Shown piece after piece: positions 1,017-43,020 of a stretch of 45,034 nt of DNA; the stretch's first letter is position 1, and the number at the start of each line of letters is the position of its first letter. Made by a program: the position numbers and the translations under genes. The notes below the pieces were generated by a model. That model was not told where the DNA came from and searched no databases. It saw only the letters and a list, made by a program, of their open reading frames with translations. The stretch lies in the IMG/VR virus record IMGVR_UViG_3300001242_000038, positions 306 to 45,339 of that record; one strand, 5' to 3'. The stretch comes from a virus.

Positions 1017-1019
1017 ATT

Positions 1020-3333: not shown

Positions 3334-4266
3334 ATGAAGATGTTATGTTTTGGTGATATTCATGCCAGATCAAATAACCCCAGATATAGGGTTGATGAAT
3401 ATTGGCAAACTTTATTGAATAAAATAGAATTTGGGCTAAATCTTGGGCTTGCTAATAATTGTGAATATGTTGCCATGCCTGGAGATATCTTTGAAACACA
3501 TAGAGTTTCAAATGCTGTTATTAGCAAAATGATAGATACAATGCTTAAATATGGATATTTAAACATGACTTTTTTAGGCGTAGTTGGCAATCATGACGCA
3601 CCATTTCATAATTTGAAATTGGAAAATTGTCCACTAAATGTTTTACAATCAGCACAAGTATTGGAAATTTTAGATAAAAACCCATATAACGACGATACTG
3701 CAAGTGATGGCAAGATTAATTTTTACGGTGCAAGTTGGGGTCAAACAATTCCTGAAATTAAAGATAAAGCAGCTTTTAATATTTTATTAATTCATAAAAT
3801 GATAATTGGTGAAGACAAGATTTGGGAAGGGCAAGAACATTATGTCAGTGCTCGTACATTACTCGCTAAAAATGGATTCGATTTAATTATATCTGGGGAT
3901 AATCATAATTGTTTTACTTCTGAATATTCAAAAAAAGTTTTACTGAATATGGGGAGTTTGGGTCGTATGACGGCTGGACAATTAGAGCATAAGCCGAAAG
4001 TTGCTATTTATGATACTAGCAATAGAACATATGAATTGTTTGAAGTTCCAATTCAACCTTCTTCAGTTGTTTTCAATTTAGATGAGATCAGACATAAAAA
4101 ACAAATAGCTGAAGAAAATGCTAAAATAAAAGAATATGTTAATTTTCTTAGTAGCAATGAAGAAAAGCAGGATTGGAATTATGTAAAGAATTTAAATAAT
4201 TTTATGCTCAATAATGACATAAGAGACGAGATTAAAGAAATTGTCTTACAGACATTGGAGGATTGA
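3334..4266 (+). CDS. SbcD/Mre11-like metallophosphoesterase nuclease
   Basis: 310 residues. All calcineurin-like phosphoesterase motifs are present in order: GDIHAR (residues 7-12), PGDIFE, VGNHDAP, LLIHKMI and ISGDNHN. These are the metal ligands of the SbcD/Mre11 nuclease. The protein is shorter than bacterial SbcD (about 400 residues) and has a short capping region and a charged C-terminal tail. The ATG follows the previous TAG directly and has AAAGAGGA upstream. It lies between the two halves of the Rad50-like ATPase, its expected partner, so an Mre11-Rad50 type end-processing complex is very likely. Confidence 0.85.
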   Translation: MKMLCFGDIHARSNNPRYRVDEYWQTLLNKIEFGLNLGLANNCEYVAMPGDIFETHRVSNAVISKMIDTMLKYGYLNMTFLGVVGNHDAPFHNLKLENCPLNVLQSAQVLEILDKNPYNDDTASDGKINFYGASWGQTIPEIKDKAAFNILLIHKMIIGEDKIWEGQEHYVSARTLLAKNGFDLIISGDNHNCFTSEYSKKVLLNMGSLGRMTAGQLEHKPKVAIYDTSNRTYELFEVPIQPSSVVFNLDEIRHKKQIAEENAKIKEYVNFLSSNEEKQDWNYVKNLNNFMLNNDIRDEIKEIVLQTLED

Positions 4267-4267
4267 C

Positions 4268-4471
4268 GTGCCTCTTAGAGATTACTGTTGTAAAAATTGT
4301 CAATTTGTGATAGAAGATAAGTTAGTGTTTGCTGAAAACGAAGCGGAAGCTATTTCATGTCCTAATTGCGGAAGCACTGCTTACAAGCTTCCTTCATTTG
4401 CTAATTTTGTCATAAAAGGGTATAATGCAAAGAACGGATATTCAAAAACAGAGGCTAATAATGGAAAATAA
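4268..4471 (+). CDS. FmdB-like zinc-ribbon protein
   Basis: 67 residues from GTG 4268, with GGAGGA just upstream; the alternative TTG at 4241 lies inside the nuclease gene. Sequence order CCKNC, then CPNCGS, then KLPSFANFVIKG, is the layout of the FmdB/CxxC_CxxC_SSSS family of small zinc ribbons. Members are common in phages and bacteria and often annotated as regulators, without firm proof. Confidence 0.65.
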   Translation: MPLRDYCCKNCQFVIEDKLVFAENEAEAISCPNCGSTAYKLPSFANFVIKGYNAKNGYSKTEANNGK

Positions 4472-4613
4472 GTCTTGGTGTGTTTGCACAAATTATAATT
4501 GTCAATATGAAGGTGGATATGCGGAACCATATTCATTCTGTCCAGGGTGTGGGAATATTTTAGAGCCAACAAAAATAAGCATTGAAGAAAATGTAGAGGA
4601 AGACAATGATTGA
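4461..4613 (+). CDS. Small zinc-ribbon protein
   Basis: 50 residues. CVCTNYNC and CPGCGN form a likely four-Cys site; the C-terminus is acidic (EENVEEDND). The ATG at 4461 follows AGAGG and overlaps the end of the FmdB-like gene by 11 bases; an upstream ATG at 4425 seems less likely. No specific function recognised. Confidence 0.6.
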   Translation: MENKSWCVCTNYNCQYEGGYAEPYSFCPGCGNILEPTKISIEENVEEDND

Positions 4614-4851
4614 TTTAAAACAGATTTCAACAGATTTAGAAAAATTAAATAAAGAAATTGTAAGTGCTGAAAAAGAACTTCTACAAGCTGAGGCTCAAAG
4701 AGATTTGCTTCAAAAACAAGGTTTAGAATTTGGCGTAAAAAATGTCAAAGAAGCTAAAAAGCAGATACTAGATAATGACAAAGAATTGGCAGATCTAGCT
4801 AATGAAATAGAAGAAAAATATAATAACTTAAAGGCTTTGTATGAATGGTAA
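4606..4851 (+). CDS. Coiled-coil protein, possible part of the split Rad50 system
   Basis: 81 residues, almost entirely a heptad-patterned helix (LEKLNKEIVSAEKELLQAE) with one likely break around LEFGVKN and a second helix (AKKQILDNDKELADLANEIE). GAGGA lies before the ATG. It sits between the Mre11-like gene and the C-terminal half of the Rad50-like ATPase. A short antiparallel coiled coil is what would be needed to replace the missing hook-return helix, but its part in the complex is only inferred. Confidence 0.6.
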   Translation: MIDLKQISTDLEKLNKEIVSAEKELLQAEAQRDLLQKQGLEFGVKNVKEAKKQILDNDKELADLANEIEEKYNNLKALYEW

Positions 4852-4996
4852 ATTGATTTTAAGGAAAATATGGGACCATATTGCAAGATGTTTGGGGATT
4901 GTAGCGGTTATATTTATTATTTCATTTTGGCTAGGGTTCGGATTTTATTTTGGCATAATCTCAGCCTCTAATTTAGATTTCCTTATTTATGGATAA
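4841..4996 (+). CDS. Small single-span membrane protein
   Basis: 51 residues. A basic N-terminus (NGKLILRK) precedes one long hydrophobic stretch around residues 18-42 (CLGIVAVIFIISFWLGFGF), then a short polar tail ending LIYG. Overlaps the coiled-coil gene by 11 bases. No ribosome site stands out, so it would depend on coupling. The size suggests a small membrane-active protein, but no family is recognised. Confidence 0.5.
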   Translation: MNGKLILRKIWDHIARCLGIVAVIFIISFWLGFGFYFGIISASNLDFLIYG

Positions 4997-5025
4997 TTTT
5001 TAATAGTATAAAATATATTAAAACA

Positions 5026-5730
5026 ATGATAAATAAAACAGAATTATCAAATATAAGAACAAAAGTCAATGACTTACTTGCTGATTTAAGGTCTTTAAAC
5101 TCTTCTTTAAAAAATGAAGAAGAGAAAAAAATTAAGTATGAAAAGTACGGCCTCAGTGCTTTAGAGGCGAGAGCAATAATTCAGAATGTTTCGAAATCAA
5201 CACAACAATTACTTGAAAAACAATTTAATTCGCTAGTCACACTTGCCATACAATCTGTATTTCAAGACGATAGAGAATTTTCAATTGAATTTGTTGAAAA
5301 ACGGAACAAGACAGAAGTTGAATGTTTTATAATTAAAGACGGACAAAAAATAGGACTATATGAAGGAGGTGGGGGATTAGTTGATGTAACAGCTATTGGT
5401 TGCACAATCGCTTTCTGGAATTTAGAGAGAAAAACAAGACCTATTTTTATTTTAGATGAAAAGTTCAAATTTCTCCATAGCCCGACATTACAGAAAAATT
5501 TGAGTCAGGTTTTAAAACTTATATCAGAAAAATTGGGCCTGCAATTTATTTTAATAACCGATCAATCTGATATTGTTGGTGATAAAGAATTCGGCGTTAT
5601 TAAAGGCGAAATTTATGAAGTAAAGCCAACAGAAATTCAATGTCCTGAATGCGGAATAGCTTGTCTTTACTCTTATGTAAAAGACCAGACAGAAATATTT
5701 AGATGTAAGAATTGCGATTATATGGAGTAA
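5026..5730 (+). CDS. SbcC/Rad50-like ATPase, C-terminal half with added zinc ribbon
   Basis: 234 residues. Starts with a short coiled coil (residues 5-65) followed by the second half of an ABC-type SMC head: a Gly-rich signature-like segment YEGGGGLVDV (residues 112-121), Walker B PIFILDE (139-145) with D-loop following, and an ILITDQ strand near 175 where the His-switch region lies. It ends with a four-Cys ribbon (CPECG at 206 and CKNC at 227) not usual for Rad50. There is no Walker A; that is supplied by the gene at 1226-2455. The ATG lacks a clear ribosome site and is preceded by TATAAAAT-like sequence. It should pair with the N-half to form a composite ATPase. Confidence 0.8.
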   Translation: MINKTELSNIRTKVNDLLADLRSLNSSLKNEEEKKIKYEKYGLSALEARAIIQNVSKSTQQLLEKQFNSLVTLAIQSVFQDDREFSIEFVEKRNKTEVECFIIKDGQKIGLYEGGGGLVDVTAIGCTIAFWNLERKTRPIFILDEKFKFLHSPTLQKNLSQVLKLISEKLGLQFILITDQSDIVGDKEFGVIKGEIYEVKPTEIQCPECGIACLYSYVKDQTEIFRCKNCDYME

Positions 5731-5732
5731 AA

Positions 5733-5969
5733 ATGAAAATTTTATGTATTAAAGATGTTATAATGCAGGATGGAGAAATTGCTTTTTATAAAAATAAATC
5801 ATACTTTACCTCATTCGATCCAGATAAAATAAATTTTAATATTATTGACCATGTTGGGTTGTTTGCGGTTAATAGTGAAATATCCTTAGAACATAATATG
5901 ACAAGACATTTTTTAAAAGAACATTTTTCATTGGATAAACATGAAGATAAGACAGTTATAGTGGAGTAA
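5733..5969 (+). CDS. Hypothetical protein
   Basis: 78 residues from ATG 5733, with GGAG eight bases upstream; an in-frame TTG at 5712 is less likely. The layout (KILCIKDV, then AFYKNKSYFTSF) suggests a small beta-barrel-like protein seen in many phages, but no named family is recognised. It sits between the Rad50-like C-half and the kinase gene. Confidence 0.55.
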   Translation: MKILCIKDVIMQDGEIAFYKNKSYFTSFDPDKINFNIIDHVGLFAVNSEISLEHNMTRHFLKEHFSLDKHEDKTVIVE

Positions 5970-11279: not shown

Positions 11280-13196
11280 ATGAATGATTTCCAGAAATAT
11301 ATCCATATTTCTAAATACGCTAGATATTTAGATAAAGAAAAAAGAAGAGAGACATGGGAAGAGACAGTCAGTCGATATGTCCAATTCTGGGAAAGAAAAT
11401 ATCCAGAATTAATTATGGGCGATTTTAAAACAGAGATGTTTAATGTCATTTATAATTTAGAATCAATGCCTTCTATGCGAGCATTAATGACATCAGGAAA
11501 GGCTTTAGAAAGAGACAATGCCTCTGGATACAATTGTACTGGTTGTGCTATAACAAACCCAAGGGTTTTTGACGAATTGTTTTACTTGCTTATGTGCGGC
11601 TGTGGCTGCGGATTTTCAGTCGAAAGACAATATATTGTAAAACTACCTGAAGTGCCAGAAGAATTTTTTAAAAGTGATACTATTATATCAGTAGCAGATT
11701 CAAAAATAGGATGGGCATCAGCGTTAAGAGAATTAATAAGTTTGCTTTATGCCGGTAAAATTCCTAAATGGGATTTATCTAAAATAAGGCCCGCTGGAGC
11801 AAGATTGAAAACATTTGGTGGAAGAGCAAGTGGTCCTGATCCATTAAATTCATTATTTAATTTTGTTGTAAAAACATTTAAAAATGCTACTGGTCAAAGA
11901 CTTAACAGTTTAGAATGCCACGACATTATGTGTAAAATTGCAGATACAGTTATTGTCGGTTCAGTAAGAAGGGCGGCGATGATTAGTTTCTCTAATCTAT
12001 CAGATGATAGAATGAGAAGAGCAAAGAAAGGGGAATTTTGGTTAACTGCTCCTCAAAGATCATTAGCTAATAATTCTACAGCATATACAGAAAAACCAGA
12101 TCTCGACGCTTTCTCAAAAGAATGGAGAAATCAATACATTTCTAAATCTGGAGAGAGGGGAATCGTAAATAAAATAGCTTTAAAGAAAAAAGCAGAATCT
12201 TGTGGAAGGGAATATGAAGGAGATTATATTTTAAATCCTTGCGCTGAAGCTATTTTAAGAGATTCAGGACAAATGTGTAACTTATCAGAAGTTGTTATAA
12301 GACCAGAGGATTCATTAGAAGAATTAAAAAGAAAAGTAAAATGGGCGGCAATTTTAGGAACACTCCAGTCAACCTTAACCGATTTCCGTTATTTGAGAAA
12401 AATATGGAAAGATAATATAAAAGAAGAAAGATTACTTGGAATTTCATTGACTGGCATTATGGACCATCCAGTAATGAGCGGAGAATGGGATAAATTCGAT
12501 GATACTGTATGGGATCATTCAAGCTTTTGCGGTACATTTTCACTAAAAGAAGTCTTAGAAATATTAAAACAAACGGCAAGAGAAACGAATGAAATATGGG
12601 CAAATAAATTAGAAATAAACAAATCAAAACAATTGTCTTTAATAAAACCTAGCGGAACAGTTTCACAACTCGTTAATTGTTCTTCTGGAATACACCCTCG
12701 AATGTTCCCTTATTACATTAGAAGAGTCAGACAAGATAAAAAAGATCCATTGTCTAATCTCATGATTGACCAAGGTGTTCCATTTATAGAAGAACAGGAT
12801 AAATATATTTTCTCTTTTTATATAAAATCACCAGAAAATGCTATAACTTCTGATAATGTAAATGCTTTAGATCAATTAGTATTATGGAAAATATATCGTA
12901 ATTATTGGTGTGATGGGAATCCAAGTCAAACAATCTACTATACAGATGACGAATATTTTGCTATAGCTGATTGGATATGGAAAAATTGGGATGAAATAGG
13001 AGGTCTTTCATTTTTTCCTAAAAATGATCATTGTTATGAAAATGCACCATACCAACAAATTACACAAAAAGAATATGAAAAGGCTATCTCAACCTTCCCA
13101 AAAATTGACTGGACTCAATTAATAAATTATGAAAAGGAAGATTTAACAACCTCTAATCAAGAGTTCGCATGTAGTGGAGGAAGTTGCGAAATTTAG
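11280..13196 (+). CDS. nrdJ: Adenosylcobalamin-dependent (class II) ribonucleotide reductase
   Basis: 638 residues. Matches the monomeric class II reductase type (Lactobacillus RTPR-like): YNCTGCAI near residue 83 for the first redox Cys, LNPCAEAILR with the radical Cys and Glu, CNLSEV for the second redox Cys, KPSGTVSQL for phosphate binding, and a C-terminal CSGGSC pair that re-reduces the active site. It converts ribonucleotides, probably triphosphates, to deoxynucleotides using coenzyme B12 and needs no second subunit. It is about 100 residues shorter than the Lactobacillus enzyme. AGGAGG precedes the ATG. No B12 riboswitch is seen in the 77-base leader. Confidence 0.93.
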   Translation: MNDFQKYIHISKYARYLDKEKRRETWEETVSRYVQFWERKYPELIMGDFKTEMFNVIYNLESMPSMRALMTSGKALERDNASGYNCTGCAITNPRVFDELFYLLMCGCGCGFSVERQYIVKLPEVPEEFFKSDTIISVADSKIGWASALRELISLLYAGKIPKWDLSKIRPAGARLKTFGGRASGPDPLNSLFNFVVKTFKNATGQRLNSLECHDIMCKIADTVIVGSVRRAAMISFSNLSDDRMRRAKKGEFWLTAPQRSLANNSTAYTEKPDLDAFSKEWRNQYISKSGERGIVNKIALKKKAESCGREYEGDYILNPCAEAILRDSGQMCNLSEVVIRPEDSLEELKRKVKWAAILGTLQSTLTDFRYLRKIWKDNIKEERLLGISLTGIMDHPVMSGEWDKFDDTVWDHSSFCGTFSLKEVLEILKQTARETNEIWANKLEINKSKQLSLIKPSGTVSQLVNCSSGIHPRMFPYYIRRVRQDKKDPLSNLMIDQGVPFIEEQDKYIFSFYIKSPENAITSDNVNALDQLVLWKIYRNYWCDGNPSQTIYYTDDEYFAIADWIWKNWDEIGGLSFFPKNDHCYENAPYQQITQKEYEKAISTFPKIDWTQLINYEKEDLTTSNQEFACSGGSCEI

Positions 13197-30816: not shown

Positions 30817-31878
30817 TTAAATAAAATTAATATGTTTTGGTTTATCTTTGATACAATAATTTATGAATTCATTTTTAGCTTTATAAAGACAAGGATTTTT
30901 ACATCTCAGATCAGGATTATGAGATTTAAACATATTGATCTTGTCATCACTCATCCACAAATCTTTGAACGATTGATTTTTTATAGAACCAATCTTCCCT
31001 TTTTTATTATACGCAAGTGTACAGCAAGTATAGACATTATAATCAGCCCCTACATAAGCAAGTAAATCTTTTGTAGGACAAAAATTATAGTCTTGAACTC
31101 CCTCAAACATGTCTTTCATTCTATCATTAAAAAGATTAAAAACAGTAAAATTATCATCAGATAGTTCTTGAGCTTTTTTAGCCAACTCAAAAGAATCTTC
31201 ATATATGCCATCAAAATAAGAATAGCCATCTGGGGTAAAAGCAGCAGATATTCTAAAATTATCTACTCCAATTTCTTTAAATAATTTTGCTGCATCAAAT
31301 ATTTCTTTGTAATTATATTTGTTAACAACAAATCCTGCTCCTATAACACTATCTTTTTTGTATTTAACTAAATTTTTAATATTTTCAATAGTCCTGAAAA
31401 ACATCTTTTTATTTACTTTTCTAAAAGATGAATATGTTTCTGGTGTAGCACAATCAACTGATATTCTAACCCAAGCTGAATCGCTTAAAATCTTACACAA
31501 TTCATCATCTAACGCCATGCCATTTGAAACTAGAGCTAGTTCTAGTTTTCTATCTAATATATCTCTGAATATATTTTTAATTTTTGGGTGGACAAGAGGC
31601 TCTCCTCCTCCGGTTATTTGAATAGCTCTTACCCCCATATCAACACAAGAATCTAACGTTTCAACAATTTTTTCATAAGAAAGTAAGTCTTTATCATTAA
31701 ATATTTCATTTGATTTATTCCCCTTCAAGCGATACGCACATGTTAAACAAGAATTGTTACACTTATTTGACGGAATAATCTGGACTTGCAATGGATTTGG
31801 TTGTTCTCCATCTTTAAACTGAATTAATTTGTCAAAGCTATGAATAATTTTGTATGGTGAATATTCCTCTTTAATCAT
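30817..31878 (-). CDS. Radical SAM/SPASM enzyme
   Basis: 353 residues. CNNSCLTC at residues 40-47 is the CxxxCxxC 4Fe-4S motif; QITGGGEPL near 90 is the SAM-binding GGE region. The C-terminal 100 residues have the SPASM-like Cys pattern (FCPTKDLLAY, YTCCTLAY, RCKNPCLY) and IGSIKNQSFKDLWMS spacing, so auxiliary iron-sulfur clusters are likely. SPASM enzymes modify peptides or carry out dehydrogenation/epimerisation of sugars; the latter fits the glycosyltransferase neighbours. Starts by ATGA overlap with paralog 2. Unusual in a phage tail operon. Confidence 0.85.
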   Translation of the reverse strand: MIKEEYSPYKIIHSFDKLIQFKDGEQPNPLQVQIIPSNKCNNSCLTCAYRLKGNKSNEIFNDKDLLSYEKIVETLDSCVDMGVRAIQITGGGEPLVHPKIKNIFRDILDRKLELALVSNGMALDDELCKILSDSAWVRISVDCATPETYSSFRKVNKKMFFRTIENIKNLVKYKKDSVIGAGFVVNKYNYKEIFDAAKLFKEIGVDNFRISAAFTPDGYSYFDGIYEDSFELAKKAQELSDDNFTVFNLFNDRMKDMFEGVQDYNFCPTKDLLAYVGADYNVYTCCTLAYNKKGKIGSIKNQSFKDLWMSDDKINMFKSHNPDLRCKNPCLYKAKNEFINYCIKDKPKHINFI

Positions 31879-33446: not shown

Positions 33447-33760
33447 TCTACTTTCTTCAATTCTAATGATAGCGTAATATTCTTATTGGCGAGATTATCT
33501 ACAAAATTTATTTGATATAATATACCATCACAAAATGCCCTATCTTTCTCTGTTACAACAATATCTTTTGGAAAATCACAGTTAAAATAATGCGTAGAAA
33601 TAGTTTTTGTCGAATCGTTGACAAATCTTTCCCTGGCTTTAAAAGCAATAAGAGTCCCTTTTAAAGTCTTAATGCCATACCAAGACGTTGTGTAACCACC
33701 CATTCCATCAGAAACAGATGTCTGTCTATGTATTTCTAATTTGACTTTATGGCCAACCAT
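33443..33760 (-). CDS. Head closure protein (SPP1 gp16-like head-tail joining)
   Basis: 105 residues, mostly beta. IHRQTSVSDGMGGYTTSWYG is the family start (Q/T...DGxGGxTxxW), and GILYQINFVDNLANKN the C-terminal strands. It seals the head after DNA packaging. Gene order connector, closure, neck, terminator is the common one for siphoviruses. Confidence 0.75.
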   Translation of the reverse strand: MVGHKVKLEIHRQTSVSDGMGGYTTSWYGIKTLKGTLIAFKARERFVNDSTKTISTHYFNCDFPKDIVVTEKDRAFCDGILYQINFVDNLANKNITLSLELKKVE

Positions 33761-33762
33761 TA

Positions 33763-34920
33763 CTATACCTTGCGTTTTTTATATCTTTCAAGAATCATTT
33801 TAGCTTCTTTTGGAAAATCTCCAGCTTCAAAAACAGATAAAACAGAATTATTACCAACCCTATATTGAGTTAGGCCAAACCCATCTTCATTCCTTCTATT
33901 GTAAAAATACTTCACCAATATTTTTACCGCCAGTTGCAAATTTTTCGGCATATTGTCAGCAGAATACCCAGCAGTATAATCAACATAGATATTTCTAAAA
34001 CCTTCTGGCCATCCACCAAATTTCCGAATTTGAGCTTTATCTAAATCAACATAAAAACTATCTTCATGATCGTCTGTTTTATATAAATCAACCCAATTAC
34101 TGTCTATCACATTTAGCCCATACACAGGAATCAATTCTGTGGACTTAACGCTACCGTAGACAGACGAAAGAATTTCTGCTTCCCATCCATTGCCTAAGGC
34201 GTTAATCGCGGCTACAACAGCCGTTACAGTAGTATTAGAGGCAAATGTAACAGAAGTATCGGCAGTACCATCTAAAACAAGTCTTAACCCAGTTGTAGTA
34301 ACAGAGACAGTTGCTGTTGATGTTGAGTTAGTGTTTCTGACTTTCATTACTCCAATTATCCATACCGCAACTCTATCTACTGCTGTTATGGGATAATTGT
34401 TTAAATTAATTATAGAACCGCCGCTACTATCGTACCTTTCCAATCTATAACTTGTTTCTTCAAATACGCGTCTACAATAATCAGAAACAAGTCCTTCAAC
34501 ATCTTCTCTGATTATATCAACTATCAGAGTTGGATCTCCGGCTTCAATATCTGAGACTATAGTTTGAGCCGCACTTTTATTGCTATCAAGTCCAAGTGTA
34601 AGTCCGGCGTCAGAACTTGTATGAGTATAAGCAATTGTCTTGCCCGTTCCAGCATTTATAGTAAAAAGTCTTGTTGTAGAAGAATATGATACAGCAAATG
34701 TTATTACACCTGTGCCGGTCAAAGTAGTGTTTGCGTTCATTTGAGTCTGAAGATGAGAGGCTAGCCCAGATCCATCATATGTACCATCACTCAAATCTAT
34801 ATTTACTGGACCACCACTAGAACTAGTAAGATTAAGAGTGTTATTCGCTTTAGTTATTGTAAAATATCCTTTATCAATATCTAAAAATGTAAGACAATCA
34901 TCTAAACTTACAATGGCCAT
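33763..34920 (-). CDS. Head-tail connector (gp6-like adaptor) with inserted beta domains
   Basis: 385 residues, about three times a normal gp6-like adaptor. Only the segments around residues 120-180 (VSDYCRRVFEETSYRLERY) and 300-385 (IYVDYTAGYSADNMPKNLQLAVKILVKYFYNRR) look like the connector. Residues 17-115 (TITKANNTLNLTSSSGGPVNI ... FTINAGTGKTIAYTHTSSDAG) and about 190-250 (VRNTNSTSTATVSVTTTGL) are Thr/Ser-rich beta domains that seem inserted. Such insertions could project from the neck. The connector assignment rests on the C-terminal motif and gene order. Confidence 0.65.
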   Translation of the reverse strand: MAIVSLDDCLTFLDIDKGYFTITKANNTLNLTSSSGGPVNIDLSDGTYDGSGLASHLQTQMNANTTLTGTGVITFAVSYSSTTRLFTINAGTGKTIAYTHTSSDAGLTLGLDSNKSAAQTIVSDIEAGDPTLIVDIIREDVEGLVSDYCRRVFEETSYRLERYDSSGGSIINLNNYPITAVDRVAVWIIGVMKVRNTNSTSTATVSVTTTGLRLVLDGTADTSVTFASNTTVTAVVAAINALGNGWEAEILSSVYGSVKSTELIPVYGLNVIDSNWVDLYKTDDHEDSFYVDLDKAQIRKFGGWPEGFRNIYVDYTAGYSADNMPKNLQLAVKILVKYFYNRRNEDGFGLTQYRVGNNSVLSVFEAGDFPKEAKMILERYKKRKV

Positions 34921-34932
34921 AATTTTACCTAA

Positions 34933-35247
34933 TTATTCTTGATCTACAAATTTATTATAAAGACTCATGTGCTCTTCAGTCAAAAAATCTTTTTCTTTAC
35001 AAACTTTTAATCTGCCTTTAATTATATTTAAAACATTTTTAGGAATATAAAATTCTTTTTCAGAATCATTAGTCCATTTAACTTCTCCATCTTCTTGATG
35101 GGTTATTGAGTACAAGTCATGCTCATCTTCAGTAAAAGACAAATATCTTAGACAATCTTGATACATACCATAAATAGTCATGTCCACTTCTTGAGGCAAT
35201 AAATTTAAAAGCAAGATCCTATCAAAAACACTCAACTTAATCAACAT
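34933..35247 (-). CDS. Conserved phage hypothetical protein
   Basis: 104 residues. Sequence pattern SVFDRILLLNLLP ... FTEDEHDLY ... FYIPKNVLNIIKGRLK ... TEEHMSLYNKF is familiar from phage head/tail gene regions, but no function is known. GGGAGAG precedes the ATG. Position between the Fn3 protein and the connector gene. Confidence 0.6.
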   Translation of the reverse strand: MLIKLSVFDRILLLNLLPQEVDMTIYGMYQDCLRYLSFTEDEHDLYSITHQEDGEVKWTNDSEKEFYIPKNVLNIIKGRLKVCKEKDFLTEEHMSLYNKFVDQE

Positions 35248-35268
35248 TTAAATCTCTCCCGTCTAAAG

Positions 35269-35652
35269 TTATGGCGAAACTGAAATCGTGACTTTCTTTT
35301 CAGGGTTAACGTAGAAATTGATTGGCTTAATGATACGGTCATGAGCCACCCATTTTACCTCAGTTGAATAATCACTTTCGTAACCATAGACATCATAAGC
35401 TGTGGCGGCGAAATAATAGGTTGTTCCAACAACAAGATCCCCTACTGAGCCCTCAACATGACCATCCACCATTGTGCCCATTTTCTGGTCAACATCTAAA
35501 GTGTATTTTTTTGACGCTGTGCCATAGTAGATCTTATACCCGGCAAGGCTGGTCTCTGCATTTGGAGACCAAGAGAACCTTGCCTCGGCAGCAAAAGCAT
35601 AACTGGATAAGAATAAAACAAAAATAGTCGCAAAACAAATTTTCTTTAACAT
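35269..35652 (-). CDS. Secreted fibronectin type III domain protein
   Basis: 127 residues from ATG 35652 (AAGGTG upstream). Basic start and hydrophobic core (LKKICFATIFVLFLSSYAFA) with an AFA-A cleavage site form a Sec-type signal peptide; the mature part is one Fn3-like domain (FSWSPNAETSLAGYKIYYG ... TYYFAATAYDVYGYESDYS). No virion role is obvious because the signal sends it across the membrane. It may act at the cell surface, e.g. exclude other phages. Lies as an isolated gene within the structural block. Confidence 0.75.
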   Translation of the reverse strand: MLKKICFATIFVLFLSSYAFAAEARFSWSPNAETSLAGYKIYYGTASKKYTLDVDQKMGTMVDGHVEGSVGDLVVGTTYYFAATAYDVYGYESDYSTEVKWVAHDRIIKPINFYVNPEKKVTISVSP

Positions 35653-35657
35653 AATTT

Positions 35658-36269
35658 TCACCTTGGATTAAATCTCTCCCAATATGTTTGATCTATTTCA
35701 ATTGTACCTAAATGTTTGTTATCACAACCGGTATCACAATATATTTTATATCCAGCCTGTTTAGCCTTTAAACAAAATGCAAAATCTTCACTTACAACAC
35801 CGTCGCCAAACCTATAATTCATTTCGAACCAAGGATAATTAATTTCTTTAAAAACACTGACATCAACCAATAATGAAGCAGCTCCAATAGCATCTACTTC
35901 AATTAATTCATTTTTATTCCATTGTATTATATTCTTGAATTTATCACCATCTTGTTCGAATATAATTGGGTCATATGGATAAGAACGCCTAAAAGATAAA
36001 CCAGATACAATATCTTTATCATGTGACAATAATTTAAGGATGGTATCGGAATGATGTCTATGATCTGTATCAAGGAACAATATATGGCTAAATGTCCCAT
36101 CTTTAAGAACGGCATGAATTATTGAATTTCGTTGATCGTCTACTCTTCCCCTATTCCCAATTATTACACTATGTTGGGGTTTCTTCAACTCTATCCATGA
36201 TTCAAAAAATTTGGTCGATAAAAAATCCCAGTTGCAAGGAAGACCAATGGCGATGTTAATATTACCCAT
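35658..36269 (-). CDS. Glycosyltransferase, GT-A type (paralog 3 of 3)
   Basis: 203 residues from ATG 36269 (TAATG overlap with the preceding gene). IAIGLPCNWDFLSTKFFESW, HILFLDTDHRHHSDTI and ELIEVDAIGAASLLVDVSVF repeat the pattern of paralogs 1 and 2; closest to paralog 2 by eye (DxDHRH shared). It sits behind an AP2/HNH endonuclease, apart from the other two. Confidence 0.8.
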   Translation of the reverse strand: MGNINIAIGLPCNWDFLSTKFFESWIELKKPQHSVIIGNRGRVDDQRNSIIHAVLKDGTFSHILFLDTDHRHHSDTILKLLSHDKDIVSGLSFRRSYPYDPIIFEQDGDKFKNIIQWNKNELIEVDAIGAASLLVDVSVFKEINYPWFEMNYRFGDGVVSEDFAFCLKAKQAGYKIYCDTGCDNKHLGTIEIDQTYWERFNPR

Positions 36270-36997
36270 TACAAACACCAGCTAATTGCTAGTTCCGGGA
36301 AGTTTAATTTATGAGGCAATCCTTCTCTTATAATAAATTTATCTCTTGCTAATGCTGCATCTTTAGCAGTTTTAAATGTTGTTTTGTTAAATACTGTCTT
36401 CCCATCATTTCTTACAATTGCAGAAAAAGATTTTCTCTCCGGTTTATAAGACACCCCACAATATCCAGAAGTGTTATTCGACTGTAATAATCTTTTATTA
36501 AATCCATTCTCTCTTATAGTTATAAATCTACAATTCCAAGGAGCATAAGGACCATCATTATCGATTCGATCTAATTGAAGACCTTCTTCCCATCCATTAT
36601 TTAAACACCAATCATTAAACACGGGGAATTCAAACACCCATTCACTACATACATAAATTCCACGCCCACCATAACTGTCATACGATCCATTATTCACATT
36701 TGAACATCTACTATTGATATGTTTCCAAAGTGAATAAATTTTATTCCTTGATTTTCTTCCACCCATCCCATGAATTGTGGATCTCTCTACTAATTTCTCT
36801 ATTTTAAGACAGCCGCAAGATTGTGATTTCCCACTCCTCAAAACTTGTAAATTAACTAATTTAATTGTCTCTTTATCACATAAACATTTTACAACGACTA
36901 GCCTACCTTGCCTCTGACTATATGGCAAATCAGCATAAATTACAACCCATCTTCCATAAACGCATCCCAAAACATATTCTTTTACATTATTACTCAT
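36269..36997 (-). CDS. HNH homing endonuclease with AP2 domain
   Basis: 242 residues from ATG 36997, with AGGAGG before it. The C-terminal 60 residues (NTSGYCGVSYKPERKSFSAIV ... FKTAKDAALARDKFI) are an AP2-like DNA-binding domain. The middle (LQLDRIDNDGPYAPWNCRFIT) is the HNH motif with its DR.dNdG..Y...N.R core, and CLCDKE/CGCL near the start give extra cysteines. Typical selfish element of phage structural regions. Start/stop overlaps with glycosyltransferase paralog 3. Confidence 0.85.
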   Translation of the reverse strand: MSNNVKEYVLGCVYGRWVVIYADLPYSQRQGRLVVVKCLCDKETIKLVNLQVLRSGKSQSCGCLKIEKLVERSTIHGMGGRKSRNKIYSLWKHINSRCSNVNNGSYDSYGGRGIYVCSEWVFEFPVFNDWCLNNGWEEGLQLDRIDNDGPYAPWNCRFITIRENGFNKRLLQSNNTSGYCGVSYKPERKSFSAIVRNDGKTVFNKTTFKTAKDAALARDKFIIREGLPHKLNFPELAISWCL

Positions 36998-37022
36998 AGT
37001 ATTCCTCCTATACAATCCATAA

Positions 37023-37083
37023 TATATTGAGAGAAGAGGTGGATTAAATCTCTTGTCGGGTGCGCTCCCTATCCCTCAATATA
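37023..37083 (-). other. Possible structured RNA or attenuator upstream of the AP2/HNH gene
   Basis: TATATTGAG (37023-37031) and CTCAATATA (37075-37083) form a perfect 9-bp outer stem. Inside are AAGAG (37034-37038)/CTCTT (37050-37054) and GGG (37058-37060)/CCC (37067-37069). This gives a three-way junction layout in a 94-base gap between the structural gene at 37092 and the HNH gene. May terminate, attenuate, or be part of the mobile unit. No known RNA family recognised. Confidence 0.35.
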
Positions 37084-37091
37084 ACTATATT

Positions 37092-37409
37092 CTAACTTGC
37101 GTAAACCACTAATCCTTTGATTACATGGAGATTTGTTACGGCACCACTGGCAAAATCAGCACCAGCAGTTGAACCGACTGTATAGGCTGCTACATTTAAA
37201 CTTGTCCCCATATCGGCTGAACCCACCACGATCAGTTTATCAGCGGACTGATCCCAAAGCATGTATTTGCCAGTAGTATCGCCATAACATTTAAAATCCA
37301 AACCAGTAGCGTCTTCCCCTAAAACAATACCAGTTGTTGCACCAGTACCTACTTTCTTAAAAATTAGGCTTCCACTTGACCATTCTGATTTAACTAAAGT
37401 AACGGGCAT
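37092..37409 (-). CDS. Putative capsid decoration protein
   Basis: 105 residues, beta-rich with little charge: LVKSEWSSGSLIFKKVGTGATTGI, CYGDTTGKYMLWDQSADKLIVVG, AGADFASGAVTNLHVIKGLVVYAS. The GKYMLWDQSADKLIV strand is common in phage structural proteins and fibre trimerisation motifs. Position just downstream of the capsid gene suggests decoration or a head fibre. GAGGA precedes the ATG. Confidence 0.55.
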   Translation of the reverse strand: MPVTLVKSEWSSGSLIFKKVGTGATTGIVLGEDATGLDFKCYGDTTGKYMLWDQSADKLIVVGSADMGTSLNVAAYTVGSTAGADFASGAVTNLHVIKGLVVYAS

Positions 37410-37460
37410 AATTATATCCTCCTAATCCATACAAATGTTTATCAGCGGTGGTTCCGCATT

Positions 37461-37682
37461 CTACTTCTTATTCTTGCCTTTCTTAACTTTTGGGTCTTTT
37501 ACCATCTTATCTTTTATCGGAAAGTCTAACGACTTATTCTCTATTTTAGAATCGAGAATAACAACGATACCTTTACTTTCCAAATCCAATGCTTTCTGTT
37601 TTAATATAGTCATTTTCATTGGGGCTTTATTCCCCATCCACTCCCCAATGAATTCTACTTTTACATATTCTAATTTATTCAT
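37461..37682 (-). CDS. Hypothetical protein
   Basis: 73 residues with a very basic C-terminus (VKDPKVKKGKNKK). Could contact DNA or the acidic capsid interior. No family recognised. GGGAGAAA precedes the ATG. Confidence 0.55.
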   Translation of the reverse strand: MNKLEYVKVEFIGEWMGNKAPMKMTILKQKALDLESKGIVVILDSKIENKSLDFPIKDKMVKDPKVKKGKNKK

Positions 37683-37700
37683 TTTCTCCCTGCTTTAAAG

Positions 37701-37732
37701 ACAAAGCTTGAGTGAAATATCTCAAGCTTTGT
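37701..37732 (-). terminator. Intrinsic terminator-like hairpin
   Basis: A perfect 12-bp stem (37701-37712 with 37721-37732), eight-base loop, in the gap after the gene at 37746-38231. On the - strand it is followed by TCTTTAAAG, only a short T-run, so termination may be partial. Confidence 0.6.
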
Positions 37733-37745
37733 TTAAATCAATAAA

Positions 37746-38231
37746 TTAAACAATGGCTGTTGGTTTTACTTCTTGGATAATCTTACCACCACCAAGAATA
37801 CATACAATTGTCCCATCTACTGGGTCATCAGTAGTTTCATCAGTGGCGAGCCTTGCATATTTATCAGTACCAGAAAGTCTAGAACTATCGATCTCAATCG
37901 CATAAATTTGGTCGCTACCAGCAGTAGTTGTGAACCCATACGCAGTAGCTGTCTGCATATCAGACCAAGTATCACCACTAGTACAAGTCCAATAATTAAA
38001 TGCTACAGTTGTCGCAGTTGAAGGCGTAACATCATCACAACTTTCAACACTGATACGTGCAACACCAGTAGAACCAGCCGCTTTTTGAATTACCCAAAGA
38101 CACTGTTCGTATTTGCCAAGATTAACAATATCCGTATTAGGACTACCATTAAACAAATCCTCATAAGCTGCTTGACTAGCACTAGGCATGGCGTTTACAA
38201 CATGAACATTCTGAAAAAGTCTTCCACCCAT
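37746..38231 (-). CDS. Putative virion structural protein
   Basis: 161 residues, beta-rich and acidic. MGGRLFQNVHVVNAMPSASQAAYE, WVIQKAAGSTGVARISVESC and YAIEIDSSRLSGTDKYARL form repeated strand-turn units like small phage virion proteins. It lies directly downstream of the capsid gene, where head decoration proteins are usual. GGAGG precedes the ATG; TATAAT-like sequence occurs further up and might be a promoter. Confidence 0.55.
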   Translation of the reverse strand: MGGRLFQNVHVVNAMPSASQAAYEDLFNGSPNTDIVNLGKYEQCLWVIQKAAGSTGVARISVESCDDVTPSTATTVAFNYWTCTSGDTWSDMQTATAYGFTTTAGSDQIYAIEIDSSRLSGTDKYARLATDETTDDPVDGTIVCILGGGKIIQEVKPTAIV

Positions 38232-38292
38232 AATTTATACCTCCATATTTATATTATAAAATTATACCCCCTACGATATTAATAAAATGTGG

Positions 38293-38319
38293 AAGCTAAG
38301 ACGGGAGATTTCTTAGCTT
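38293..38319 (-). terminator. Hairpin after the major capsid gene
   Basis: AAGCTAAGA (38293-38301) and TCTTAGCTT (38311-38319) form a 9-bp stem with nine-base loop in the 131-base gap after the capsid gene. It probably lowers transcription beyond the capsid gene, which usually needs the highest expression. Confidence 0.6.
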
Positions 38320-38362
38320 ATCAACTTTAGTTTAAAACCAAAGCCTATCCACACTAATATTA

Positions 38363-39643
38363 TTAACTTCTTGAAGTAATTACAATAAACGGAGAAATTG
38401 TGTCAGAACTGGCCTCTGGAGGCACCAATGCCTGCGGCATCCAGCTTTGACCAGCAACGTAAAAGCGCCACCGATATGCCATCTGATCAACGTCGAATTT
38501 TAGGTGCATAGAAGTGTCAAAACCAATACCACCATCACCACTAAGCATACCGAGTAGATACTGTTTCATGTCAGCAAGAATCAAATCGCCAGCAGTGCCT
38601 AAAGCTTTTGCATGGTGGCTAAAAACAACAGGGAGCCCAAACAACGTATTATACGGTTTCCCACTAGCCCCACCCGCTGGCATAAATACAGGGACACCAG
38701 CGGTGCCTACAGTTAGAGACATGCTTGCAAGCTGAGGAAGAGTATTGGGGTTGGCAATCCAAACAGCATTAGATGGATTAATGCAACGCGCATACATTTT
38801 AATAACATTTTCCCAAACAATGGTCGTAGCTGGTTGACCAGTCTCAGCAGTGATAGAGACAAGACAAGGGGCAGAGAGTAACCCCTGTGGCTGGCCAGCG
38901 CCAGTACCTTTAAGGATAACCCTGTTCATTTCATAATTAAAACCATCAGTAAACCCTTCACGCAATATATTCTCCATACTCATAGGAGAAAAGCGAAGAA
39001 TTTCATCACTAGCATAGGCAAGAGCTGTTACTTTATGAAGATTTAGATTAATATAACCAAACTTGATATTCTTTTCAGTAAGAGACCCTTCCTCTTCAGT
39101 CCATTGCCAAGCAACGTTACCATATACCAAGTTCCCAGATTTATCGAAACCATTGACATAAGGAATTTTTACAGAATTTGACTGCATAGGAATTTGAGTA
39201 CACCGACCCATCAACTCATTCTGTTCTTTAGCCGCAACAAGAAGGTTTTGCCGAAATTCTTCAGGAACCAGATAACCACCGGCTTCGCCGTCACCAACAT
39301 TCTGAGAAGGAGAACCAGCAGCTTTAATGGTTGCACAATTATCTTCCCATTTAGAAAGTTCTGGAGAGAGTTTACGATATCCAGACTGAGCAGCTTTAGC
39401 AACATCAGTTGCAAAGTGGGCAAGTGTTTTAAACCCAGCCTTCTTATCTTTTTCTGCTTCACTCTGACCAACCACAATACGTTTTTCAATCGGCTCTACT
39501 GCGGCTTTAATTTTTGCATCAATTTCAAGAGCAAGCGATTCTTTAAACTTAAGAACAGCGCCTTCAACTACGGAAGCAGCACCCTTGCTGATAACTTCAT
39601 TAAGTTCATCAATAGTCATCTTACTTTTAGTTTCTTCAGCCAT
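38363..39643 (-). CDS. Major capsid protein (HK97 fold)
   Basis: 426 residues. The first 110 or so are helical and charged, like the HK97 delta domain that acts as internal scaffold and is removed by the protease. The coat part starts near GGYLVPEEFRQNLL and continues with IPYVNGFDKSGNL, LAYASDEILRFSPMSMENIL, GTGAGQPQGLL, LFGLPVVFSHHAKALGTAGDLILADMKQYLLG, and a C-terminal MAYRWRFYVAG segment; all are hallmarks of this family. GGAGGA precedes the ATG. Directly downstream of the protease-AAA+ gene. Confidence 0.95.
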   Translation of the reverse strand: MAEETKSKMTIDELNEVISKGAASVVEGAVLKFKESLALEIDAKIKAAVEPIEKRIVVGQSEAEKDKKAGFKTLAHFATDVAKAAQSGYRKLSPELSKWEDNCATIKAAGSPSQNVGDGEAGGYLVPEEFRQNLLVAAKEQNELMGRCTQIPMQSNSVKIPYVNGFDKSGNLVYGNVAWQWTEEEGSLTEKNIKFGYINLNLHKVTALAYASDEILRFSPMSMENILREGFTDGFNYEMNRVILKGTGAGQPQGLLSAPCLVSITAETGQPATTIVWENVIKMYARCINPSNAVWIANPNTLPQLASMSLTVGTAGVPVFMPAGGASGKPYNTLFGLPVVFSHHAKALGTAGDLILADMKQYLLGMLSGDGGIGFDTSMHLKFDVDQMAYRWRFYVAGQSWMPQALVPPEASSDTISPFIVITSRS

Positions 39644-39716
39644 TTTATTTTATCCTCCAAATTTTATTTTATGTTTAATAATCGCCTAATATCTCTTGTA
39701 TGATATCTCTAGCAAT

Positions 39717-42182
39717 TTAATCCTCAAATTCAATTATACCCTTAGCTTTTTTAATTCTATCTTCCACTAAATCAGAAAGATCGATCTCATCAAATGTCTT
39801 TTTAACTTTATCAACAAATATATCTTTTATTTGAATAGCATCAAAGTCAAATTCGACTTCTGATTTTTTAACCGGGATTTCTATTTCTATAAAATCAATG
39901 CTTTTTGTCTCTATATTATTGCCAATATCTTTTTTCTTATCTACGTTCTTTAAATCTTGAATTAAGCATCTTTGCTCTTTCATTTGTTCTAAAGACTGAA
40001 TTAGAGCTTCTTCAATACTAATTCCATCATCTTCAGCAATCATTTTAGCAAATTCTACTAATTCTTTTAAATGAGCGCCAGAATATCCATCTGTTAATTT
40101 AGCAAACTCAGTTATAATATCCTTATCGGCATCTTTTATAAAAAACTTTAATAGTTTTATTCTGTTATCTTCATCTGGAAGTGAAAAATTTATAATATGA
40201 TGAAACCTACCAGGCCTATCAATCAATGCGTCTGGAATATCTTCTGGGAAATTTGAAGTTAAAATAGTTAGAACACCTTTATTTTCCCTTATCCCATCCA
40301 TTTCAGTTTTTAACAAATCAACAGTATAGCCACTAAGCCATGTATCAATATCTTCTAAAAAGAAAACACTAGGCGCAAGAGTTCTAGCCATTTCAAAGCC
40401 AATGCCTAAAGCACTAGCAGCTCCCCAGCCAAAATCTTTAGATGAAGCCCAGATAAAAGTCGTATCTGCTTTATTCATCAAAATCTTCCCAGTTAATGTT
40501 TTGCCCGTACCTGGGGAACCAATAAACATCATTCCACGACTAGGAGACTTTGTAGATAATTTTTCAATATTCTTCTTAATTTTATCCTTTGCTTCATCAT
40601 TTGGGAAAATGACATCATCCCATCCTATTTCCTTAACCTCAAGAAATTCTCCACCAATAGAAAATTTTTCACCTTTAAGATAATTATTCTCATCAACCCA
40701 TTTTATAGCATCTCTGACAAACGATTTATTTAATTCAATATTTTTATTAGAAGTAAAAATATCAATACTTAAACCACCCCAATTTTTATAAATTTGAAAA
40801 ACAAACCTATCACCATCATTTGATTTATAAAATTGAGTTCCAGTTACTAAAAACTCTTCTTCTAATTTTGAATTCAATTTCACAACAGAATGCTGCAATG
40901 GGATTTCAGATCCATTACCATAAAAATTTCTTTGATCAAGGAGTTCATGCTTAGACAAAACATTCTTAAATGCAGAAAGAAAATTGCCTTTCATAGCATT
41001 CGGGATAAAAAAATCTGTAGTGAAAATATCTTTTATTTTACACCCCAAATATTTCGTAAAAATTTTATATTCAAATCCTGCCGGTTCTGTCCTTACTTGA
41101 GTAATATCAAAATCATTGACATATTCTTTTTTTATTTTTTCTAAATCAACATTTTTTACTTTTAAAGAATTGAAAAATTTAATTCTTGCATCTATTACAT
41201 CTGTTTCCTTTTTAATCTCTACTTCCTGTTTCTCTTTATTAAAATCATCCAATTCTTTTTCAATGATTATGTCTATGTCTATCTCTGATTCTGATTCTTT
41301 AACATCCTCTAATTCCTGATCTTTCTCAATTAAAGTTTCATCAATATCCACATTATCGGAAATTAACTCCCCTTCCGGTTCATTAATAACGACAGTTTTT
41401 TCAATTATTTCTTTATCGGAATCTTTAGTTACGTCTTCATTATTTTCTTTACTGCTAATAAATTCTATATCAACATACCAATTGCCCATTTTTTTGATAT
41501 CTTCTTTTTCCTTACTTATGAAGTCATCACCAGCCAATAATCCAAAAACTTCATCAGGGATATTTATTTCTTTAACTATTTCTTCTTTTTTCTTTTCTAA
41601 ATCAACAAACCCAACAATTTTTGCTTTCTCATTATCTTGGTCAATTTCATTTACAAAATCAACAATAGATTTTGTAGTAATCTCTCCATTAGCCACTCTT
41701 TCTACTAATGCTGAGTAATGGTCCGGCACTACAACAGCTGATATTTCCAAAAGTTCAACTTTTTTAAAAACCCTATCAGGGATTTTGCCGCCTCTAGTAT
41801 ATTTTTTTATTTCAACTTCATTCATATCATCTTTATATAAAATTTCTTTAGGAATAAAGCCTACAGAAAATGCATTCATAACTCCGCTAGAGTATAACTT
41901 GTAAAAAGTTTCTCCTTCTTCAGTTTCAGCAAACTTAACCTTGAATTTTAATCCCTGACCAGGATAGACTTTAGTCCAAGCTGCCCTACCAATAGGAGGT
42001 CTATCATATTTATGGAAAGCGGGGATGACAGGATTTTCTATAAAATTTTCTAATTCCCAAGCATTATCATCAATTAAATCTCCACTTCTATCTATAGAAT
42101 CTGATTTATTCGCATAAGCAACTACAGATTTTTCTACCTCATTCACTTCTTTTTGAAAAATATTTTTAAATAACTTTTCCAT
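39717..42182 (-). CDS. HK97-type prohead protease fused to an AAA+ ATPase
   Basis: 821 residues, far longer than the usual 180-250. Residues 15-190 are a prohead protease: PAFHKYDRPPIGRA (His57), MNAFSVGFI (Ser106), and LLEISAVVVPDHYSAL (Glu146). Residues 190-330 are an acidic linker. Residues 330-520 resemble the beta/alpha region that precedes bacterial AAA+ domains (NWGGLSIDIFTS, FLEVKEIGWDDVIF). Residues 545-735 are an AAA+ module: GSPGTGKT (555-562), FFLEDID Walker B (607-613), TSNFPE sensor 1 (642-647), DRPGRF Arg finger (655-660), and SGAHLKEL (701-708). The Bcs1/FtsH-like motif style suggests an unfoldase or translocase. It probably processes the delta domain of the coat protein and may remodel or clear it with ATP. 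Confidence 0.88.
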   Translation of the reverse strand: MEKLFKNIFQKEVNEVEKSVVAYANKSDSIDRSGDLIDDNAWELENFIENPVIPAFHKYDRPPIGRAAWTKVYPGQGLKFKVKFAETEEGETFYKLYSSGVMNAFSVGFIPKEILYKDDMNEVEIKKYTRGGKIPDRVFKKVELLEISAVVVPDHYSALVERVANGEITTKSIVDFVNEIDQDNEKAKIVGFVDLEKKKEEIVKEINIPDEVFGLLAGDDFISKEKEDIKKMGNWYVDIEFISSKENNEDVTKDSDKEIIEKTVVINEPEGELISDNVDIDETLIEKDQELEDVKESESEIDIDIIIEKELDDFNKEKQEVEIKKETDVIDARIKFFNSLKVKNVDLEKIKKEYVNDFDITQVRTEPAGFEYKIFTKYLGCKIKDIFTTDFFIPNAMKGNFLSAFKNVLSKHELLDQRNFYGNGSEIPLQHSVVKLNSKLEEEFLVTGTQFYKSNDGDRFVFQIYKNWGGLSIDIFTSNKNIELNKSFVRDAIKWVDENNYLKGEKFSIGGEFLEVKEIGWDDVIFPNDEAKDKIKKNIEKLSTKSPSRGMMFIGSPGTGKTLTGKILMNKADTTFIWASSKDFGWGAASALGIGFEMARTLAPSVFFLEDIDTWLSGYTVDLLKTEMDGIRENKGVLTILTSNFPEDIPDALIDRPGRFHHIINFSLPDEDNRIKLLKFFIKDADKDIITEFAKLTDGYSGAHLKELVEFAKMIAEDDGISIEEALIQSLEQMKEQRCLIQDLKNVDKKKDIGNNIETKSIDFIEIEIPVKKSEVEFDFDAIQIKDIFVDKVKKTFDEIDLSDLVEDRIKKAKGIIEFED

Positions 42183-43020
42183 TATATAATCCCTCTAAAA
42201 AATCTTTTTTAAATTTATAAAATTGTTCCGGCGTAGTTATTTTACCATATATTTTATGGAATAATTTATGTTCATCATTGTTTAATGTCACAACATTATT
42301 AATATCAAATAAAATATTTTTAAATTTTATCCAATTGTCTTTATTAATATTATTTTCTCTAATTATTGTTGACAAAGATTTTAAATGATGATGGATTAAT
42401 TTGCTCCTATTATTTTTATTCAATATAATTGATTTATATTCATCTCTTTTAAAACACCTTTCTCTATTTTTAATATAACCAGAAGACTTCCTTATTAAAT
42501 CTTGCAAAGATGTTAACCCGCCCTTCCATTGTGGACTATTTTCTTTAATATACTTACCAACCCTAGCACAATCTGTACATTTTTTAGAACAATATTTTCT
42601 TTTACTTCCACGCCTGTATAAATTCAGCATCCGTTTATTAAAAATTTTATATTCTTTGCCACAATATTCACAAATTAAAAATATTGTTGAGACATCTTTT
42701 TTATTATTATCATAACATATACGAGAACAATACTTTTGATTAGATTTATTACTTTTGGGTTTATACGTCTTACCACAATATTCACAAATTTTATTTTCTA
42801 TAAATATTTTATCGAAGGCATAACAATAATGAGAACAATATTTCCTTCCATCTTTTATTTCAGAATTCCTTGCTTTATAGGCTATACCGCAATATCCACA
42901 AATAAGGCAAACACTATTATTTTTAATAGATTTTTTATTTTTACAAATAGAAGAACAATATTTTTTTCTTTTGATACTAGTTTCAAATTCTATAGAACAA
43001 AATTCACATTTTTTAATCAT
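42166..43020 (-). CDS. HNH endonuclease with several zinc knuckles
   Basis: 284 residues. At least four CxxC units occur in the first 170 residues (CEFCS, CGYCG, CEYCG twice), each followed by a YCS.xC pair, giving a string of short zinc fingers for DNA binding. The C-terminal HNH part includes LIHHHLKSLSTIIRENN and NVVTLNNDEHKLFHK. A homing-type nuclease. Its 3' end overlaps the start of the protease-AAA+ gene by 17 bases, so it may have carried this gene's start region with it. Confidence 0.8.
   Translation of the reverse strand: MIKKCEFCSIEFETSIKRKKYCSSICKNKKSIKNNSVCLICGYCGIAYKARNSEIKDGRKYCSHYCYAFDKIFIENKICEYCGKTYKPKSNKSNQKYCSRICYDNNKKDVSTIFLICEYCGKEYKIFNKRMLNLYRRGSKRKYCSKKCTDCARVGKYIKENSPQWKGGLTSLQDLIRKSSGYIKNRERCFKRDEYKSIILNKNNRSKLIHHHLKSLSTIIRENNINKDNWIKFKNILFDINNVVTLNNDEHKLFHKIYGKITTPEQFYKFKKDFLEGLYNGKVI

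Follow-up and report, generated by a model that had tools for sequence, protein, structure and literature searches.

Fusion of an HK97-type prohead protease with an apparently swappable AAA+ ATPase module in uncultured viruses

The window analyzed here, a stretch of 45,034 nucleotides that makes up nearly all of a 45,339-base linear virus record (IMG/VR record IMGVR_UViG_3300001242_000038, positions 306 to 45,339), encodes on its minus strand a protein of 821 amino acids (aa), read from a single open frame that starts with the ATG at 42182. This protein almost certainly combines a prohead protease and a complete AAA+ module in one polypeptide (Table 1). A sequence-only reading of the locus had assigned to the frame at 39717-42182 an HK97-family prohead protease (His57, Ser106, and Glu146), an acidic linker, a beta/alpha region, and a full AAA+ module bearing GSPGTGKT, LEDID, TSN, and RPGRF motifs. 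The frame proved to be exact and uninterrupted, the catalytic triad and the ATPase motifs lie where they had been placed (TSN at residues 642-644 and RPGRF at 656-660), and Pfam recognizes both halves: Peptidase_S78 at residues 17-161 (E 5e-8; 33.7 bits against a curated cutoff of 21) and AAA at residues 551-667 (E 4e-18, exceeding the curated cutoff).

The NCBIfam matches, to proheadase_HK97 (23.9 versus 59) and to Cdc48, PAN, and FtsH, fall under the cutoffs. With a custom protease hidden Markov model (HMM), trained on 10 family members and excluding the window, the window protease scores E 3.7e-43, although matches to this HMM are not independent of the family from which it was built. The full-length structure model agrees with the proposed linker and beta/alpha region: it is confident for the protease (residues ~12-160) and the AAA module (362-750), of low confidence for the acidic linker (162-302), which is followed by a helix (303-339), and weak for the tail. 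When modeled alone, the AAA module reaches a mean predicted local distance difference test score (pLDDT) of 89.

Table 1. Features of the protease-AAA+ locus (coordinates are those of the window; res, residues of the 821-aa protein)
Feature	Coordinates	Strand	Evidence
Protease-AAA+ gene, 821 aa	39717..42182	-	Open reading frame (ORF) and Pfam
HK97-type prohead protease domain (Peptidase_S78), res 12-161	41700..42149	-	Pfam, custom HMM, triad, model
His57	42012-42014	-	Protease triad
Ser106	41865-41867	-	Protease triad
Glu146	41745-41747	-	Protease triad
Acidic low-confidence linker, res 162-302, and helix, res 303-339	41166..41699	-	Structure model
N-domain of the AAA module, res 362-528, without Pfam family	40599..41099	-	Family conservation, fold
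AAA+ core and lid, res 529-749	39936..40598	-	Pfam, alignment, model
Walker A GSPGTGKT, res 555-562	40497..40520	-	Alignment, motif count
Walker B LEDID, res 609-613	40344..40358	-	Alignment, motif count
Arginine-finger region R656..R659 (RPGR)	40206..40217	-	Alignment, motif count
C-terminal tail, res 750-821	39720..39935	-	
HK97-type major capsid protein, 426 aa, next gene downstream	38363..39643	-	phrog_10, E 5e-46
HNH endonuclease-like gene, directly upstream, overlapping the start of the protease-AAA gene	42166-43020	-	phrog_1271, E 1e-13

The window protein resembles known HK97-family prohead proteases (PF04586) in its domain, in its His/Ser/Glu triad, and in its position upstream of an HK97-type capsid gene, beyond which, farther downstream, lies a head-tail adaptor gene. 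It differs from them in that the family described here carries an AAA+ cassette of ~390-500 aa between the protease domain and the tail.

The gene recurs in other datasets. An identical protein is encoded on contigs of 113 kb (L002) and 5.6 kb (L003), and the DNA of a 65-kb contig (L004) is 99.94% identical to that of the window over 11.3 kb; the three contigs come from three different datasets. The G+C content remains between 0.26 and 0.33 in all 500-base steps inside the gene. Read coverage across the join had been proposed as a test for a chimera, and this recurrence in other datasets, together with the even base composition, indicates that the frame is not one.

To define the family, we gathered relatives at 59 loci from profile scans, in the best 80 of 160 tblastn candidates in viral contigs, and on one contig of a metagenome-assembled genome (MAG); the profile and tblastn sets comprise 96 distinct viral contigs from 70 datasets. 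Whole-protein identity to the window is 28-79% in the 37 other aligned module rows, two of which (L051 and L072) are without a protease. The search for both parts in one ORF, which the sequence-only reading had proposed, returned a protease match in 73 of 84 distinct module-bearing ORF sequences (including L034, which has a frameshift between protease and AAA part and was counted as fused through a residual match only); five more are cut at a contig end, and in the remaining six, whose ORF has no protease, a prohead protease is the next gene. Pfam detects S78 at E<=0.01 in 18 of 38 family members, the rest being recognized by the custom HMM only. When eight larger records were scanned for S78, six returned the fusion as their sole match and two returned nothing.

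The fusion is widespread in uncultured viruses, but it was not recovered from the phage and plasmid records searched. No single place covers at least 80% of the window protein in any of 538 matching records among the 50,697 phage records searched, nor in any of 549 matching plasmid records. Likewise, the modules of L048, L103, and L061 find no phage record in which one place covers at least 80% of the query, and the phage-record matches listed span the AAA core or little more. Among the best 50 matches listed for the whole protein in BFVD, which are AAA proteins, prohead proteases, or nameless, no named target is described as having both protease and AAA. A first scan of genome contigs found no relative, and a second found one, on a 3.4-kb Cloacimonadota MAG contig (1 of 124 genomes of the phylum), a single short contig, which is no proof of the host. 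None of the Pfam, NCBIfam, and PHROG matches corresponds to a described family with this layout, and no prohead protease with an ATPase was found in the portions of the open literature that were searched, subscription papers and preprints being outside the search. The suggestion that no such phage protein had been described stands for the literature searched, in which no function is described either, whereas the fusion itself turns out to be common. Each half belongs to a known family; what we regard as new is an ATPase cassette that a head protease may carry or lack.

The closest published parallels join a head protease to another head-related part, as here: in thaumarchaeal proviruses, an S78 protease is fused to the capsid protein (PMC6563490; see also NCBIfam NF045541). 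The partner in the described prohead protease fusions is capsid or scaffold, whereas here it is an ATPase.

The six loci in which the module is a separate gene show that the association does not depend on the fusion. The AAA gene is directly upstream of a Pfam-S78 protease gene in L051, L092, L094, and L019/L072 and, in L103, directly upstream of a protease that is 85% identical to the L051 protease domain. In L107, it lies just downstream of, and overlaps, a protease that matches the custom HMM (E 5e-18) and phrog_80 (E 3e-5) and has no Pfam match. In L051 the portal is of Mu type and the capsid protein is Mu-gpT, and the L072 capsid belongs to a third family (phrog_3990), so that the association crosses head types. 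An HK97-type capsid profile match is present downstream in 53 of the 62 loci having at least 1,300 nucleotides of downstream sequence; the nine without one are the split loci L051, L092, L094, L103, and L019, plus L040, L100, L110, and L115. In a module tree of 74 of the 84 rows (leaving out L031, L034, L079, L099, L107, L111, and four short fragments), the five split loci that are present are scattered: their distribution requires four changes, two of them forced by branches with strong support. This scatter indicates that fission or fusion occurred more than once. The L072 module belongs to an ORF of 1,814 aa (361-5805; the same as L019) just upstream of the separate prohead protease, in which stretches resembling an ATP-dependent ligase and a LigD phosphoesterase can be discerned by eye; a DNA_ligase_A_M match (E 1.7e-13) occurs in 1 of 38 family members scanned.

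Both enzymatic sites are preserved across the family. Each residue of the His/Ser/Glu triad occurs in 71 of 73 protease rows (all three in 70), with the remainder being gaps, and the Walker A motif, the Walker B Glu-Asp pair, the sensor-1 Asn, and both arginines are invariant in 39 rows. Over all 84 ORFs, fragments included, Walker A is found in 82 and DRPGRFH and TSN/TTN in 80 each. The proportions of differing nonsynonymous (pN) and synonymous (pS) sites between the window and L083 are 0.24 and 0.63 in the module and 0.39 and 0.64 in the protease part; between L033 and L044, they are 0.088 and 0.70 in the module and 0.097 and 0.67 in the N-terminal part. Protease and module both evolve under purifying selection, and their silent sites are nearly saturated.

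Comparison with proteases whose genes lack the module (AAA-less proteases) shows where it sits. A tail resembling KEGRVLSxKN follows the AAA part in 32 of the 67 ORFs (of 84) examined with a complete 3' end, and this tail motif, which the window's own tail does not have, is common to family members and AAA-less proteases of other viral contigs. A scan for the tail returned 50 loci, in which 28 ORFs (24 distinct) consist of an S78-like protease and the tail without AAA, 13 of protease, AAA, and tail, and 6 are 5'-truncated AAA ORFs; the other three comprise a truncated protease, a truncated ORF, and a complete ORF with neither a protease nor an AAA match. AAA-less and AAA-bearing proteins align on either side of the module. 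L137 (AAA-less) is 81% identical to L044 over residues 1-310 and 62% over 813-1023, the L044 module occupying 388-780, and L121 (AAA-less) is 64.5% identical to L027 over residues 40-398 and 62% over 788-1049, with the second block starting 28 residues inside the end of the L027 module (815). In the closest pair, the protease of AAA-less L143 is 95% identical to that of L063 and its linker holds another block; that of AAA-less L151 is 90% identical to the protease of AAA-bearing L037, and the L151 capsid protein shares 80.9% identity with its counterpart in AAA-bearing L044. The module thus forms a cassette between the protease domain and a C-terminal tail that belongs to the protease itself; it resembles a swappable add-on, which suggests that cassette exchange is concentrated in the linker of this protease. 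In several AAA-less proteins (L121, L122, L140, L143, L148, L149, L156, and L165), recurrent blocks can be discerned by eye in the linker, among them PHHK..GVYNHLxKHY, EHxCRL.., KWTxxEAxxWVxEH, and zinc ribbons.

The protease, too, can be exchanged. The related virus L005 and the window share 99.25% DNA identity from 33720 to 41351, a region that includes the AAA part and the capsid gene and runs on into further genes. The near-identity stops at 41351, in the linker, past which the protease is a different allele. The HNH endonuclease-like gene of the window might help drive this allele swap. HNH-like ORFs are discernible by eye at the same place in L005 (5358-5876) and L015 (2855-4135).

The module itself consists of an N-domain of ~165 aa and a classical AAA core. 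The N-domain gave no Pfam match at E<=0.1 in any of 24 members, its PHROG matches are scattered and weak (the best, at E 0.0014, is to a family of unknown function), and its best PDB sequence match has an E of 0.32. In a Foldseek search with the module, Bacillus subtilis YjoB occupies ranks 1-3 and mitochondrial Bcs1 accounts for six of the seven ranks from 4 to 10. By VIA, the best YjoB match has a Z score of 21.0 over 337 residues (root mean square deviation [rmsd], 7.7) and the best Bcs1 match one of 18.4 over 329 residues (rmsd, 9.5), and among the 50 matches listed, more than 300 residues are aligned in four, all YjoB or Bcs1. In both of these AAA ATPases a beta-rich domain precedes the core, and they provide the best whole-module structural matches. 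They differ from the family in that its N-domain has no sequence match and its module is tethered to a protease; moreover, Bcs1 has an N-terminal transmembrane helix, whereas a simple hydropathy test (maximum, 1.26 over 19 aa) indicates no transmembrane segment in the window protein. Hydropathy of at least 1.6 is reached in 7 of the 84 ORFs, inside the AAA module in six and in the protease part in one (L096). The aromatic-hydrophobic-Gly pattern that threading AAA proteins carry in their pore loop is present in 9 of 76 parsed loops; the loop of the window reads GWG and does not have the pattern. Bcs1 is likewise described as devoid of this pore loop and as moving folded substrate concertedly, without threading (PMC11143374 and PMC12219900). 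Fold and missing pore loop thus favor a YjoB/Bcs1-like remodeler of folded proteins over an FtsH-like threader, such that, of the "Bcs1/FtsH-style" label first given to the module, the Bcs1 flavor holds and the FtsH flavor is weakened.

On this basis, we tentatively propose, with somewhat less than even confidence, that the module provides an accessory remodeling ring of the YjoB/Bcs1 kind that is brought to the head by the protease. The cassette would form a ring acting as an ATP-driven remodeler or chaperone of folded proteins rather than as a threading unfoldase, the protease part would bring this ring to the assembling head, and there the ring would act on a head-associated protein. Its role is probably accessory, since the gene has no AAA part in relatives whose proteases are very similar, one of which also has a similar capsid protein; by the same comparison, basic cleavage can probably proceed without the ATPase. 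The AAA part remains associated with the protease across fusions, fissions, and a protease swap, which points to a job tied to the head or to the protease's load. The surroundings of the AAA-less proteases (24 of 29 loci, plus strand) yielded no AAA module, and an N-domain profile that matched 8 of 8 AAA-bearing records found none in 20 records of AAA-less proteases.

Several observations weigh against this proposal. The closest AAA-less relatives are on contigs of 4.0-10.8 kb, so that a separate AAA copy could lie elsewhere, and the longer AAA-less records, up to 54 kb, belong to more distant relatives. No kinship in sequence between the N-domain and YjoB or Bcs1 could be detected, and the whole-module rmsd of 7.7 means that their two-domain arrangement is not closely matched. 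Among the VIA matches listed, p97 and proteasome ATPases score Z ~18 over the 210-240 residues of the AAA core, which by sequence is nearest to Cdc48/p97, enzymes that thread. The modeled AAA part has five strands versus the seven described for Bcs1. Finally, internal-cargo and regulatory roles fit an optional cassette equally well.

It is possible, if rather unlikely, that head maturation in these viruses is itself ATP powered, with a built-in ring that would remodel or clear folded head proteins and be gained or lost by cassette swaps in the linker. Head-maturation proteases are known as small, ATP-independent enzymes, and such a ring, if real, would constitute an ATP-powered step in capsid maturation, a process otherwise thought to be ATP independent. 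The version of this idea in the sequence-only reading included ATP-driven clearing of the delta domain; given the colinear AAA-less proteases, these heads are unlikely to need such clearing in general, unless the AAA-less viruses encode the ATPase elsewhere. The near-matched natural pairs of proteases with and without ATPase make the choice between ATP-driven maturation and a cargo carrier directly testable.

Under the cargo alternative, which we consider unlikely, the linker would be a loading bay whose insert enters the prohead, is cut free by the protease, and is either kept or ejected with the DNA toward the host. The other recurrent blocks seen by eye in AAA-less linkers, such as the zinc ribbons and the PHHK..GVYNHLxKHY block, are in keeping with it, as are L143, which carries such a block where L048 has the AAA module, and L151, whose protease gene has no module in a virus with a similar capsid protein. 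Nevertheless, the module is a separate gene in 6 of the 79 ORF sequences intact at the 5' end, so copackaging by fusion is not universal, and the N-domain and AAA core are strongly conserved, unlike many host-facing factors.

Somewhat less probable is an unfoldase-peptidase of the FtsH/HslU type, as the sequence-only reading envisaged, in which the ring would thread head proteins, such as scaffold or the delta domain, into the protease to which it is tethered. The module shares with FtsH, HslUV, and Cdc48-type unfoldases the AAA core, Walker A and B, and the two arginines; all ATP-site motifs of a classical core nearest by sequence to Cdc48/p97/FtsH are present in the same polypeptide as the protease, and the few aromatic loops noted above fit threading. 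This reading is weakened by the 67 of 76 loops that lack the canonical pattern, the feature by which the family differs from these unfoldases, by the YjoB/Bcs1 folds, and by the existence of colinear proteases without AAA; furthermore, we know of no closed proteolytic chamber in S78 proteases. The HExxH zinc peptidase motif that distinguishes FtsH is absent from the window protein and occurs in 1 of the 84 ORFs (L019, which has no S78 domain).

A timer or regulator, in which the nucleotide state of the AAA part would hold the protease inactive, or position it, until assembly is complete, is a slightly less likely reading still. The linkage of AAA and protease, by fusion or neighborhood, in 79 of 79 ORF sequences intact at the 5' end speaks for it, and pairs of an AAA ATPase and a serine protease do exist: IetAS is a defense pair in which the two are encoded in separate genes, and weak PADLOC IetA profile matches cover the AAA part only. 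The IetAS protease is, however, of a different family and its setting is defense. AAA-less relatives argue against a regulator, and the gap between protease and AAA profile matches, which ranges from 2 to 248 aa in 68 ORFs, does not suggest tight allosteric contact. The last alternative, that the fusion is an assembly artifact or chance read-through, can be discarded with near certainty because it recurs across many datasets and lineages under purifying selection.

We also considered whether the AAA part is made separately from a nested internal start, as in phage lambda, where the Nu3 scaffold is nested in the prohead protease gene C. The counts do not support this as a rule of the family: starts with an ATG and a ribosome-site match of at least 5 bases are not enriched in the linker (10 of 7,997 linker codons versus 35 of 34,399 elsewhere in the 68 ORFs).

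Other features were seen in passing. In L027 (4738-7884), a tandem duplicate of ~28 aa within the protease domain (ISTGIKDRDGEK...) is possibly an assembly slip, and a Mu gpF-like ORF in L018 (831-2321) has, by eye, an intein-like (Hint) stretch inside. Elsewhere in the window are an exonuclease-like gene (1205-2455), a ribonucleotide reductase gene (11280-13196, plus strand; phrog_367, E 1e-157), and, between structural genes, a gene for a radical-SAM-like protein (30817-31878, minus strand; phrog_14086, E 2.8e-12).

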